Shown here: one piece after another, positions 4,631 to 58,878 of the stretch
Numbering within the stretch: position 1 is the first letter of the stretch
Layout: the number at the start of each line of letters is the position of its first letter
DNA from: Mesoterricola silvestris
GTDB taxonomy: Bacteria; Acidobacteriota; Holophagae; Holophagales; Holophagaceae
Length of the DNA: 64,000 nt
Assembly: GCF_030295405.1 (NCBI RefSeq)
Contig: NZ_AP027080.1
Span: 3,828,001-3,892,000, forward strand
Direction of reading: 5' to 3'
Program-made: the position numbers and the translations under genes
Notes under the pieces: model-generated
What the model saw: the letters and a program-made list of their open reading frames with translations, nothing else
The model's database searches: none
What the model was told of the DNA's origin: nothing

Positions 4631-4772
4631 CTTCATCCCAGACATCACTGTTCATCCCTGTTCCGCAGGGCCAGGGCCTGGATGGGTCGGCGAATGCGGG
4701 TAATGCGCGCGCCGACCCAAGCCGTCGCCGGCCCTGCGTAACAGGGATGAACAGTGATGTCTGGGATGAAGG
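4631..4772. repeat. Long palindromic repeat (CATCCC family), copy 1
   Basis: Arms of about 41 bases (4631-4672 and 4731-4772) are reverse complements with roughly one mismatch. An inner stem GGGTCGG/CCGACCC (4684-4690 and 4712-4718) is nested inside. The outer arm reads CTTCATCCCAGACATCACTG and continues into TTCATCCCTGTTCC and GCAGGGCC. The same ATCCC-GTT-GCAGGGCC core recurs in the palindrome at 12048-12202 and inside the 304-bp elements at 5821 and 34647, so it belongs to a dispersed family. It fills most of the gap after the DUF4405 gene. The rest of 4597-5094 is AT-rich promoter sequence with no gene that I can see. Confidence 0.85.
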
Positions 4773-12047: not shown

Positions 12048-12202
12048 ATCCCCTTCATCCCTTTCATCCGCTATTCATCCCCGTTCCCGCAGGGCCAGCG
12101 ATGAGATGGGGCAGCGCGTCGTTGATCTGCATGCGCCGACCCATCCCAGCTCTGGCCCTGCGGGAACGGGGATGAATAACGGATGAAAGGGATGAAGGGG
12201 AT
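12048..12202. repeat. Long palindromic repeat (CATCCC family), copy 2
   Basis: Arms of about 51 bases (12048-12098 and 12152-12202) are reverse complements with about one mismatch. They contain serial TTCATCC units, CCCCGTTCCCGCAGGG and GGCCAG. The loop has the CGCCGACCCA box also present in the other family members. It lies between convergent genes (stops at 11950 and 12255) and could end both transcripts by folding into a hairpin, although no U-run follows. The rest of 11951-12254 shows nothing else recognisable. Confidence 0.85.
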
Positions 12203-34646: not shown

Positions 34647-34950
34647 GCCGTGCCGGCAAACCCAAGGTCATGAATCGATAGGTTGTTCTCGGGGAAATGG
34701 CTCCAGCGTTGACCTGACGTTCTTTATCCTGCTTCTTCCCCTGGATCCTGTTTATCCCCGTTTGAACTCCGACGGGAGTTGTCGCGACCTTTGGGTCATG
34801 GACGGCGAGTAACGTGCACTCCGGCCCACCTCTGCATCAGCCCTGCGGAAACCGGGATGAACGCCGATAGAGGGGATGAACTGGGATCTGCTCAACCTGG
34901 AACAGCCCCTTCATCTGGGTTTCAAGACACCTGGGGTTTGCCGACACACC
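34647..34950. mobile_element. 304-bp MITE-like element, copy B
   Basis: This is the second copy of the element at 5821-6124, in the same orientation and with the same length (304 bp). The ends are again inverted repeats (left GCCGTGCCGGCAAACCCAAG, right ending GGGTTTGCCGACACACC). The right end directly touches the stop codon of the glycosyltransferase at 34951 (TTAG on the plus strand). The left flank (CTGG) does not match, so no target duplication is evident here. It lies between two minus-strand genes, downstream of one and upstream of ilvD. The remaining bases 34544-34646 hold only ilvD 5' sequence. Confidence 0.75.
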
Positions 34951-36420
34951 TTAGCGACCCAGGGTTCGGAATCGGTCCTTCAGGACCCGGGCGCGGTGGA
35001 GCCAGGAGGTGAGGGCGATGGCGGACAGCACCAGGAGGAGGATCCACAGGGACCCGGGCCAGACCCGCGGGGCCAGGGCCGCGGGCACCGCCAGGGCGCC
35101 CAGGACCATCAGGCGGATTCCCGAGCGCCGGCCGGAGGTGCCCCGCACCTGCAGGAGGGGGCCGGCGTGGAGGCCCCACAGGAGGATCAGGCACAGGAAG
35201 AAAGCCGCGAGGGGGAGGGCCGCGTAGGGGGCGGGGGCGCCCAGGGCGGAGGCGAGGGTTCCCAGGAGGGAGGCGGCGAGGGTGCCGTAGTAGGCCGCCT
35301 TCAGGGGGGCGGGGACGCTCCAGGCCGGGAACAGGTCCGCCGGGGCCGCGGGCTTCGCGGTCCGGCCCCGGGCCATCAGTTCCTCGGTCCAGCGGCAGAA
35401 CTGCGCGGTGAGGGCGCCGGCCTCGAAGCGCTTCCAGGTGTCCCGGCCCATGGCGCGCAGGCGCTCCTGGCGCGCGGGATCGGCCTGGAGGGCGCGGATC
35501 GCGCTCACCCAGGCGTCCGGGTCCAGGTAGTCGTCGATGATGATGCCGGCCTCCCCCGCGGCCTCGGGGAGGCCCCCCACCCGGCTTCCCATGAACAGCA
35601 GGCCCGCGGACTGGGCTTCCGGGCCCATGCGGCCGAAGGGCTCCGCCCACCGGGAGGGCATCAGGACCAGCCAGCTCTCCCCGTAGAACGCCTCCTGGGC
35701 CAGGAACCCGGAGACCCGCACGTTGGGATGGCGTCTGGGATCGTAGCCGCAGTTGGCGGCATTGCCCCGGCCCGAGAGGAGGAAGGCCTGGTCCGGCATC
35801 CGTTCCGCGATCCGCAGGAAGAGGTCGGCGCCCTTGCTGAACTCCGCGGCGGCCATGCTGATGCACCGGCCCTCCGGCCCCGGGGGCAGTTGCACGGGCT
35901 GGACGGCGGGATAGAGCACGGAGGCGTCGTCCCGTCCCAGCAGCTCATTGGCCAGGTCCGCCATGTACCGGGACGGCGCCAGGATCCGGTCGAATTGCCG
36001 GAGGATGGCCTTGGTGACGTACACGGGCGCCGTGCCCGCCACGGGGCACAGGGCGCAGAAGTGGTCGCAGGTGGCCTGGGCGATGAGATCGGGACACAGG
36101 GTGCGGCCGTCGTGGAGGCAGGTCATGACCGGCACGCCCAGGGCGCCGGCGATCTCGAGGCCCATGGGGTGGGCCCCGAACTGGGCATAGATCGCGTCGG
36201 GCTTGGCGGCCAGGGCTTCGCTCCGCATGCGCTCCGGACCGGACACGGGGATCATCTCGACCCCGCGCAGGGTGCCGGGGGCATCCTTGCCCCAGAAGAC
36301 CGCCACGGCCCGGCCCCCGGACGCGACCCAGGATTCGAGCAGCAGTTTATCGGTGACTTCCGCACCGCCCAGGCCCGGATGGTAGCTGGAACCCAGGTAA
36401 AGCAATGTCCCGCGGGCCAT
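34951..36420 (-). CDS. Glycosyltransferase (GT4-like) with C-terminal membrane helices
   Basis: Residues 1-370 of 489 form a GT-B transferase (LYLGSSYHPGLGGAEVTDKL; SRWAEPFGRMGPEAQSAGLL; AGIIIDDYLDPDAW). About 120 residues follow with roughly four membrane helices (for example LPLAAFFLCLILLWGLHAG and LWILLLVLSAIALTSWL). The tail would tether the enzyme to the inner membrane, which is unusual for GT4 proteins and suggests a lipid acceptor. A Cys-rich stretch (CLHDGRTLCP, CDHFCALCP) in the middle may hold a metal. The TAA stop lies at the edge of the 304-bp element. Substrate unknown. Confidence 0.8.
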   Translation of the reverse strand: MARGTLLYLGSSYHPGLGGAEVTDKLLLESWVASGGRAVAVFWGKDAPGTLRGVEMIPVSGPERMRSEALAAKPDAIYAQFGAHPMGLEIAGALGVPVMTCLHDGRTLCPDLIAQATCDHFCALCPVAGTAPVYVTKAILRQFDRILAPSRYMADLANELLGRDDASVLYPAVQPVQLPPGPEGRCISMAAAEFSKGADLFLRIAERMPDQAFLLSGRGNAANCGYDPRRHPNVRVSGFLAQEAFYGESWLVLMPSRWAEPFGRMGPEAQSAGLLFMGSRVGGLPEAAGEAGIIIDDYLDPDAWVSAIRALQADPARQERLRAMGRDTWKRFEAGALTAQFCRWTEELMARGRTAKPAAPADLFPAWSVPAPLKAAYYGTLAASLLGTLASALGAPAPYAALPLAAFFLCLILLWGLHAGPLLQVRGTSGRRSGIRLMVLGALAVPAALAPRVWPGSLWILLLVLSAIALTSWLHRARVLKDRFRTLGR

Positions 36421-56716: not shown

Positions 56717-57916
56717 ATGAAAGCCCTCCACCTTCCCCTGCTCACCGCATGCCTCGCCCTGTCCCCCCTGCGCGCCCAGACCCCGCCCGAGGACCTCGCC
56801 AAGCGCGTGGACGCCCTCTCCCGCGAGCTCGAACGCGTCAAGGGCGAACTGGAGGCGAGGCCCGCCTCCGGCACCGTCCTGGGCGGCTACGGCGAGATCC
56901 AGTTCTCCCACTTCACCAAGGACGGCGCCAAGGACACCGCCGATCTGCGCCGCTTCGTGCTGGCCCTCACCCACCGCTTCGACGACCGCACCGAACTGGT
57001 GACGGAGCTGGAAGTGGAGCACGCGGTCAGCTCCTCCGACGACAAGGGCGAGGTGGAGATCGAGCAGGCCTACATCCAGCACCGCCTCTCCCCCACCTGG
57101 TCCCTGCGGGGCGGGCTCTTCCTGGTGCCCGCGGGCCTCCTCAACGAGCACCACGAGCCCACCGCCTACTACGGCGTGGAGCGCAACGCCGTGGAGACCG
57201 CCATCATCCCCAGCACCTGGCGGGAGGGGGGCCTCCAGGTGGTGGGCGCCTTCGACAACGGCATCCTGCTCCAGGCCGGCGTCTCCACCGGCTTCGATTT
57301 CTCCAAGTGGGACGCGGCCTCCACCGAGGGCGCCGAATCCCCCCTGGGCGCCGTGCACCAGGAGCTGTCCGGGGCCAAATCCCACGACCTCGCCGCCTTC
57401 GCCGCCCTGAACTGGCGGGGCCTCCCCGGCCTCCTCCTGGGGGGTTCCTGGTTCCACGCCAAGGGCGCCCAGGGCCAGCCCGCCATGCCCCCCATGGCCG
57501 CCACCCTCTGGGACGTCCACGCCCGCTGGACCCCCGGCCCCTTCGACCTGAGCGCCCTCTACGCCCGGGGCACCGTGGCGGACACCGCCGCCTTCAACCA
57601 GACCCGCGTGGGCAGCCCCACCCTGGTCCCCAGCCGCTTCGAGGGCTGGTACGGCCAGGCCGCGTGGCACCTGTGGTCCTCCGGATCGTACGCCCTGGCC
57701 CCCTTCGTCCGCTACGAATCCGTGAACACCGCCGCGGCCTTCGAGCCCCTGGCCCCCGCCTCCCTGACGCCCGAGGCCGCCCCGGCGGAGCGCATCTGGA
57801 CCGCGGGCCTCACCTTCAACCTCAACCCCCACGTCGTCCTCAAGGCCGACCTCCGCCGCTTCCGGAACGACACCGCCCAGAACCGGGTGAACCTGGGGCT
57901 GGGGTGGGCGTTCTAG
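56717..57916 (+). CDS. Outer-membrane porin (phosphate-selective porin O/P-like)
   Basis: The 399-residue protein has a signal peptide (LHLPLLTACLALSPLRAQ), a short coiled coil (PPEDLAKRVDALSRELERVK), and then a beta-barrel with a GGYGEIQFSHFTK start and a C-terminal Phe (LGLGWAF), the outer-membrane insertion signal. The FEGWYGQAAWHL strand fits the porin O/P group. It follows the peroxidase gene by 9 bases and shares its promoter. The ligand cannot be told; phosphate is only the family name. Confidence 0.85.
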   Translation: MKALHLPLLTACLALSPLRAQTPPEDLAKRVDALSRELERVKGELEARPASGTVLGGYGEIQFSHFTKDGAKDTADLRRFVLALTHRFDDRTELVTELEVEHAVSSSDDKGEVEIEQAYIQHRLSPTWSLRGGLFLVPAGLLNEHHEPTAYYGVERNAVETAIIPSTWREGGLQVVGAFDNGILLQAGVSTGFDFSKWDAASTEGAESPLGAVHQELSGAKSHDLAAFAALNWRGLPGLLLGGSWFHAKGAQGQPAMPPMAATLWDVHARWTPGPFDLSALYARGTVADTAAFNQTRVGSPTLVPSRFEGWYGQAAWHLWSSGSYALAPFVRYESVNTAAAFEPLAPASLTPEAAPAERIWTAGLTFNLNPHVVLKADLRRFRNDTAQNRVNLGLGWAF

Positions 57917-58380
57917 GGGGACGGCTTTGGTGGGGTGCGGGTCCCGGACCTTCGCCCCGGTTCGTTGACCCAGGCAAGCTGGGTCAACGCAAAGCTCGCA
58001 CCTTGGGATTTTGAGGGGTGTTGCCACGCTCCGGCTTCGATGGCCGTGCTGGAAGAGCGTGGACGGAGTGGCTCTCCTGGGGGGCCTATGCCCCTTCGAC
58101 ACGCTTCAAGTGGTTTGAAGTGGAAGCCGGATCGCGCCGACGTTGATCTGTGAGGCGATTGAACCGATCAACGTCGGCGCCAACCGCCCTTCTCCCCCGA
58201 CACTCGAAGCGTCCCCCCGAGCCATAGGCCCTCCCGGGGAGCCCCAAGATCGTGGCCCCCCCGCCTCCAACGGAGGACGAATGCGGCAGCACCCCTCCCC
58301 AGTCCACGGAAGGGCCCTTCCCGTAGGCGCAGCTTGCCTGCGCCTACGAACCGGAGCGAACGTCCGGGACACGGGCGATT
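57917..58380. repeat. 464-bp palindromic element between convergent genes
   Basis: The whole gap is an imperfect palindrome. Outer arms 57941-57964 and 58347-58370 agree at 22 of 24 positions. A hairpin follows on each side: GTTGACCCAG/CTGGGTCAAC with loop GCAAG (57964-57988) and GTAGGCGCAG/CTGCGCCTAC (58323-58347). These are paired with the same loop on opposite strands but with covarying stem bases. Further matches (GGCCTATG, ACGCTTC) lead to a central 15-bp perfect stem (58134-58148 with 58166-58180). TTCTAG stands at both outer borders (57911-57916, 58379-58384). No gene is seen. Confidence 0.8.
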
Positions 58381-58851
58381 CTAGGCTTTCCAGGCGTTGA
58401 GGAAGGCCAGCACCTTTTCGCGGCTGTACCCCTCGCCCTCTTCCAGCACGCCGGTGTCCTGGGAGTGGAGGAGCTTTCCGTCGGCGTCCAGGACGAAGAG
58501 GTGGGGGTAGCCGGGGACCTTGGGGAACTGGGCCAGGAACTTCTCGTTCTTGGCTTCCTTGCTGAAGTTCACCAGGACGAAGACGAAATGCTTGTCCCGC
58601 AGTTCCTTCACGTCCTTCTGGGCCTCCCAGAAGCCGTGGAGCAGGTGGCACCAGGAGCACCAGTTGCCGCCCACGTCCAGGATGATGCGCCGGCCGGATT
58701 TGCGGGCCTCGGCCTTGGCCAGTTCCAGGTCCTTGAAGCTGTCCCGGGCGGGGTCGAAGGGGCCGGCCTTGAGGGCCACCTTTGCCGGGGCCTTGGCGGC
58801 GAGGGGCGCGAGACTCGCGCAGAGGAGGAGGGAAAGCGTGAAGGCTCGCAT
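58381..58851 (-). CDS. Thioredoxin-fold periplasmic protein with CSWC site
   Basis: The 156-residue protein has a signal peptide (RAFTLSLLLCASLAPLAAKA) and a thioredoxin fold with GGNWCSWCHLLHGFW and the cis-Pro loop VPGYPHLFVLDADGKL. The CSWC site and DUF255-like NWCxWCH surroundings suggest a disulfide or haem-related thiol-redox role in the periplasm, perhaps for the cytochromes encoded upstream. AGGAG lies 7 bases ahead of ATG 58851. Its TAG stop lies in CTAG at the edge of the palindromic element. The precise partner is unknown. Confidence 0.85.
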   Translation of the reverse strand: MRAFTLSLLLCASLAPLAAKAPAKVALKAGPFDPARDSFKDLELAKAEARKSGRRIILDVGGNWCSWCHLLHGFWEAQKDVKELRDKHFVFVLVNFSKEAKNEKFLAQFPKVPGYPHLFVLDADGKLLHSQDTGVLEEGEGYSREKVLAFLNAWKA

Positions 58852-58878
58852 CGTGGAACTCCTGGATGCCAAGTATAA

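Follow-up and report, generated by a model that had tools for sequence, protein, structure and literature searches.

The DNA analyzed here, termed the window, is a 64,000-nucleotide stretch of the Mesoterricola silvestris genome (G000, C1:3828001-3892000; a single contig of 4,994,678 bases). Within it, a porin-like and a thioredoxin-like gene converge on a gap occupied by a long imperfect palindrome of 464 bp, as had been proposed from the sequence alone (Table 1). TTCTAG was found at both ends of the palindrome (57911-57916 and 58379-58384), also as proposed, and each CTAG includes the stop codon of the adjoining gene. Complementarity of the arms was 81% between 57938-57994 and 58317-58373, 74% between the conserved inner blocks and 88% between the two stems of the central hairpin. 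Each arm carries a subterminal hairpin with a GCAAG loop, centered about 40 nt from the start of the conserved end core, and the stem differences between the two arms were confirmed to be compensated. The open reading frames that cross this copy are mechanical. When folded as RNA, the palindrome reached -246.6 kcal/mol on the plus strand (z -5.8) and -273.3 kcal/mol on the minus strand (z -7.9), with 0 of 100 shuffles as good for either strand. On either strand, a fold more stable than those of the shuffles is what any palindrome must show.

Table 1. Features of the palindrome and its flanking genes (positions in the window).
Feature	Position	Strand	Remarks
Porin-like gene (PF07396)	56717..57916	+	terminates at left CTAG
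Left CTAG, target copy	57913..57916		contains porin stop TAG (57914-57916); single CTAG at the empty site of G004 and G005
Inserted element, imperfect palindrome	57917..58380	none	464 bp, taking CTAG as the duplicated target; orthologous sites lack it in G004, G005 and G001
Left-arm conserved end core CGGGTCCCGGACCTTCGC	57938..57955	+	core pattern matches in own genome, compared with reversed control
Left subterminal hairpin CGTTGACCCAG-GCAAG-CTGGGTCAACG	57963..57989	+	hairpin search and covariation
Left-arm conserved inner block	58070..58112	+	partner 58201-58243; inverted repeat and family alignment
Central hairpin	58128..58186	none	stems 58128-58151 and 58163-58186; block CGCGCCGACGTTGAT present in the 29-copy alignment
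Right-arm conserved inner block	58201..58243	-	partner of 58070-58112
Right subterminal hairpin CGTAGGCGCAG-GCAAG-CTGCGCCTACG	58322..58348	-	hairpin search and covariation
Right-arm conserved end core CGTGTCCCGGACGTTCGC	58356..58373	-	core pattern matches in own genome
Right CTAG, second target copy	58381..58384		contains thioredoxin-like stop (58381-58383, minus strand)
Thioredoxin-like gene (PF13899)	58381..58872	-	terminates at right CTAG

The porin/thioredoxin gene pair was found to lack the element in three congeners (G004, G005 and G001). In G004 and G005, the stop codons of the two genes overlap in one CTAG; by contrast, the M. silvestris genome has a CTAG on each side of the element. 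Because these congeners have a single CTAG, the flanking TTCTAG sequences are read as a target-site duplication (of CTAG, or of the TA within it). Because the window copy is shortened at its right end, readings of its duplication range from 4 to 7 bp. The joined flanks of 25 further loci were queried against G004 and G005, and 11 of these, picked since both flanks matched close together, were analyzed by reading the junctions base by base. By this approach, an empty site in G004 and/or G005 was detected at all 11, for a total of 12 of 26 loci when the window locus is included. The remaining 14 loci either were uninformative (with a match for one flank or none, with flanks on separate contigs, or with 0.2-5 kb of other DNA in between) or held an element or other DNA. 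Clean junctions, with the element directly between two CTAGs, were observed at 1919909 and 2658910. At locus 1911096 the element was also present in G005, and thus some insertions are not specific to this species. At 395694, a complete mini copy flanked by CTAGs is present in G004, and an IS630-type element has inserted at the right one of these.

The palindrome is not unique, as multiple genomic copies were found. With the window copy as query, 128 BLAST pieces in at least 40 places were detected in the M. silvestris genome (the best 40 of 157 candidates were scored), and the end core CGKGTYCCGGAYNNNCGC had 92 exact matches compared to 1 for a reversed control pattern; when united, the BLAST places and end-core matches mark at least 87 sites. 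The possibility that the half-element has no other copy, raised in the sequence-only reading, thus no longer stands. In an alignment of 29 full copies, each arm displayed conserved blocks with variable spacers between them. Full-size copies span about 0.4-0.5 kb between cores, and in mini forms (about 80 bp) the two ends enclose a single hairpin. None of the 40 places has a gene called inside by a rough gene caller. Identity among copies is often just 66-75%, which suggests that the burst was old or came from several sources. When the window copy was compared to 60 genomes, 4 were found to match (with at most the best 10-11 candidates scored per genome): M. silvestris itself, G004 and G005 with few pieces each, and G055, a member of another family of the phylum, in which one weak 54-bp piece was the lone match outside the genus. 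When a younger copy served as query, matches were found in 5 of 61 genomes of the family, each of them from the same genus, and every matching genome other than M. silvestris itself had 1 or 2 pieces (among at most the best 10-11 candidates scored per genome). A plasmid or phage origin was set aside, as no plasmid or phage matches were found and one exact end pattern had none in viral contigs. The literature searched, which left most subscription papers out of reach, yielded no description of this palindrome family.

Taken together, the copies, the empty sites and the CTAG at both ends strongly support one of the three proposals of the sequence-only reading, that of a non-autonomous element. 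We conclude, with a probability of about 0.87, that the 464-bp palindrome is one copy of a gene-less, non-autonomous DNA transposable element (MITE-like) that inserted at CTAG and was probably mobilized by an IS5-like (or IS630-like) transposase.

The target word was examined in relation to the position of the elements behind genes. The 64-kb window has 18 occurrences of CTAG compared to 176 expected from base composition, a tenfold depletion; 10 of the 18 are at stop codons, 6 are intergenic and 2 are coding (by a simple gene caller, with element-borne CTAGs counted). Stop codons that face an element within 60 bp were TAG in 38 of 58 cases, compared to 100 of 265 for other genes at the same loci (Fisher p 1.3e-4). 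Among 36 ends in agreement with the 21-nt end consensus in at least 15 positions, 17 had CTAG just outside and 2 had CTAA; 19 were without CTAG, and 16 without any xTAx, at that exact offset. In 41 of 49 elements, one or both sides are faced by a gene 3' end no more than 150 bp away; these 49 were hand-picked from 167 end pairs obtained by a loose pairing with many false pairs. This placement at gene 3' ends is as expected, since CTAG is depleted and survives mostly at stop codons and between genes. The duplication of CTAG leaves stop codons to both neighbors, and therefore insertions do little harm and persist.

The same placement is what would be observed if the palindrome were a bidirectional terminator or 3'-end-protecting RNA encoded by the host and kept by host selection, the arm hairpins of which stop facing transcription or shield the mRNA 3' end. 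The hairpins covary (see below), and at 3586749 a congener has a T-run hairpin that the element-bearing locus is without, both of which are in keeping with such a role. However, a search of 57850-58450 for a G+C-rich hairpin followed by a T-tract found none, which speaks against the double terminator suggested earlier; several congeners have both genes abutting or overlapping without any terminator; and three elements between divergent genes (by a rough caller) display perfect stems in four detected arms, although the fifth arm (4115496) had no hairpin score. The occurrence of CTAG at stop codons accounts for the tail-to-tail placement, and thus no terminator function is needed. We therefore consider a host terminator or protective RNA improbable.

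For the MITE-like element, a mobilizer was sought among the transposases of the genus. No transposase gene with the family ends (GAGCCYGGCTACGTAATCG) was found when this end pattern was searched in 6 genomes of the genus, nor were family ends found at members of PF01609 (M. silvestris genome) or of PF13358 and PF01797 (6 genomes of the genus). DDE_Tnp_1 is present in 2 copies in the M. silvestris genome with ends unlike those of the palindromes, and this resident IS (DUF4096 plus DDE_Tnp_1) has ends CTAG-GGGCTGTCGGCAAACC, of which only the first bases resemble the family ends. It was not retained as parent, as BLAST gave no match between the palindrome and this IS, which appears instead to be the parent of another repeat, described below. 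A resident IS630-type transposase was likewise dismissed, with 0 DDE_3 matches in this genome. An autonomous copy in L201, the ORFs of which were listed, was not retained, and a 2.1-kb end pair in G004 (1085757/1087870) that resembled an autonomous element proved to be a member of a second palindromic family with an IS630-type element inside. Since no transposase with these ends was found, we infer the mobilizer, which was probably IS5-like (or IS630-like) and has been lost or has diverged in this genome. Many published MITEs are likewise without a known partner.

The closest published element in the literature searched, as far as the available part of its description goes, is MITEPsy1 of Pseudomonas syringae, which is gene-less, has terminal inverted repeats and inserts at CTAG or YTAA, duplicating it; ISPsy2 of the IS5 family has been proposed as its parent (PMC3189936). 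The palindrome family has in common with MITEPsy1 the lack of genes, the terminal inverted repeats and the duplicated CTAG target. The two differ in length (100 nt compared to about 0.4-0.5 kb) and have unrelated end sequences; for the palindromes no counterpart to ISPsy2 was found here, and they have covarying subterminal hairpins, of which the portion of PMC3189936 at hand makes no mention for MITEPsy1. The preferred target is also shared with IS630, for which the title of Tenzen and Ohtsubo (1991), as cited in PMC2170065, gives the TA within CTAG. An IS630-type element with a PD-(D/E)XK gene sits in the CTAG inside related palindromes of G004, but its ends differ from those of the palindrome family.

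Several other mobile elements of the genus were observed at CTAG or at the same sites. The second palindromic family (276 bp, ends CTAGGAGCCTGTCTACGTAATAG) is similar to that of the window in being a palindrome with CTAG at both ends and in end sequence (2 mismatches in 17); it differs in having another interior and a near-perfect palindrome, and several of its G004 copies are almost identical and thus recent. The IS5-like element is found between CTAGs at L189:461-1965 (~138960-140464) and L194:83-1587 (~840082-841586) of G000:C1, and carries a PD-(D/E)XK_3 gene (PF13366) as well as a transposase that is split over two overlapping frames, with DUF4096 in the first and DDE_Tnp_1 in the second (and a putative frameshift). 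A 304-bp element at 34650-34954 of the window is a repeat family in at least 40 places (the best 40 of 130 candidates were scored) and matches this IS5-like element in three pieces at 74-85% identity; by this similarity it looks like an internally deleted derivative. The sequence-only reading had noted that it is placed like the palindrome without being related to it in sequence; the cause may be the same, as both copies of the parent IS are also found between CTAGs. Two further strong inverted repeats, at 12048-12202 and 4631-4771 of the window, have a short stretch in common with the 3' part of this IS5-like element. The IS630-type element, at L188:1000-2872 of G004 and in other copies, carries, besides a nuclease-fold gene of PF13366, another palindrome of about 140 bp, and is inserted in the CTAG of palindromic elements. 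The PF13366 passenger is thus common to two unrelated IS types. A third palindromic family (CCTCGGCGAACCTCGGCCCCTCGGCCACCTCGGCGATG...) was found in G004 (L181, L178) at intergenic sites that the window family holds in M. silvestris, and it seems that several elements have made use of the same sites.

The subterminal hairpins were analyzed across the family. Among 151 end-core matches (with at most one substitution), 129 had a hairpin by loose score (>6) and 109 had a perfect stem of at least 8 bp near a fixed offset. After 4 weak matches were dropped, 125 were retained for arm-type and shuffle tests, and the shuffled expectation of perfect stems near the fixed offset was 2.2 of 125. The stems comprised 33 distinct strings (9 nt or shorter) in at least three hairpin types. 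The two arms of an element often differed in type, the arm types in 49 paired elements being AA (19), BC (17), AB (6) and other (7). Except for a few stray matches, hairpin sequences were confined to these elements. The 53 arms with the window-type hairpin reduced to 18 distinct rows, in which 97.5% of cells were paired compared to 88.5% after shuffling; 4 pairs were changed on both sides and none varied on one side only. Covariation was 0.266 compared to 0.083 for shuffled rows (0 of 500 shuffles as high), a type of statistic that related rows inflate, and shifting the partner by 1-3 columns abolished the signal. Covariation, the absence of which the sequence-only reading had named as a possible outcome, is therefore clear among family copies. 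The claim that the fold was preserved holds for the small subterminal hairpins and not for the whole palindrome, the arms of which can differ in type.

The covariation shows that pairing was kept, and the data do not decide between selection and template-switch repair as its cause. Selection may have acted on the hairpins during transposition or on transcripts. Alternatively, template switching between hairpin strands and between arms, a mechanism described for RNA genes in the available part of PMC8794818, may have written compensated changes in one step and left covariation unselected, which is compatible with the transposon reading. Both arms have the same stem in 11 of 19 AA elements (compared to a mean of 7.0 after shuffling, with 11 of 5000 shuffles reaching the observed number), and stem CGTAGACGCAG is confined to the two arms of one element, both as expected from template switching. 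By contrast, identical arms may be as old as the palindrome itself, the same position is taken by hairpins that differ entirely in sequence, and five B-type arms carry one common mismatch, so that correction was not constant. We regard unselected covariation as a serious candidate, at somewhat less than even odds. Because template switching can also yield covarying hairpins, covariation is insufficient for the discrete structured RNA proposed earlier. Covariation is the one point in favor of such an RNA, the fold is found on both strands, and all 7 Rfam matches were under the gathering score; thus, neither this RNA nor a known RNA family was retained.

Inverted pairs of short hairpins downstream of genes are also a property of REP dimers, as far as PMC3733652 is available, which could suggest a REP/BIME-type element moved by a hairpin-reading tyrosine (RAYT/IS200-like) transposase. 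However, REPs are described in that portion as 20-40 bp in length, with a GTAG class tied to RAYT, whereas the palindromes carry long inverted repeats at their ends and a duplicated CTAG. In addition, 0 Y1_Tnp matches were found in the M. silvestris genome (2 candidates scored), and the hairpin is, but for stray matches, restricted to these elements. A REP/BIME-type origin is thus largely refuted and very improbable. It is a speculative notion, and an unlikely one, that the hairpin is a functional part of the ends of an otherwise cut-and-paste, CTAG-targeting transposon, recognized by shape as extruded DNA hairpin or RNA. If true, shape recognition would explain why about 100 arms keep a hairpin equally far from the end despite at least three unrelated stem/loop types, and how one element can combine a left and a right arm that differ in type.

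The earlier interpretation as a whole is thus partly supported. That the congeners have no element at the same gene pair, and that two CTAG copies flank the element where two congeners have one, was shown directly. For the transposon reading, a DDE transposase would have targeted the rare CTAG and duplicated TA or CTAG on insertion. Such an element would land at TAG stops, with the duplicated target retaining the stops of both neighbors, and low-harm insertions at gene ends would persist to generate a dispersed family. Its IS5-like (or IS630-like) mobilizer would since have been lost or have diverged in this genome, and the pairing of the subterminal hairpins would have been upheld by selection (during or after transposition) or by repair through template switching from one hairpin strand to the other. 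The family is ordinary in kind; what is unusual are its covarying subterminal hairpins and the target word that places it at stop codons. A simple rule, in which a rare target word survives mainly at stops and its duplication restores both of them, may account for gene-less transposons at gene 3' ends. Covariation in a palindromic repeat is by itself no proof of a functional RNA, and about 100 hairpins of one family, with datable insertions and empty sites in relatives, would provide a test of selection versus template switching.
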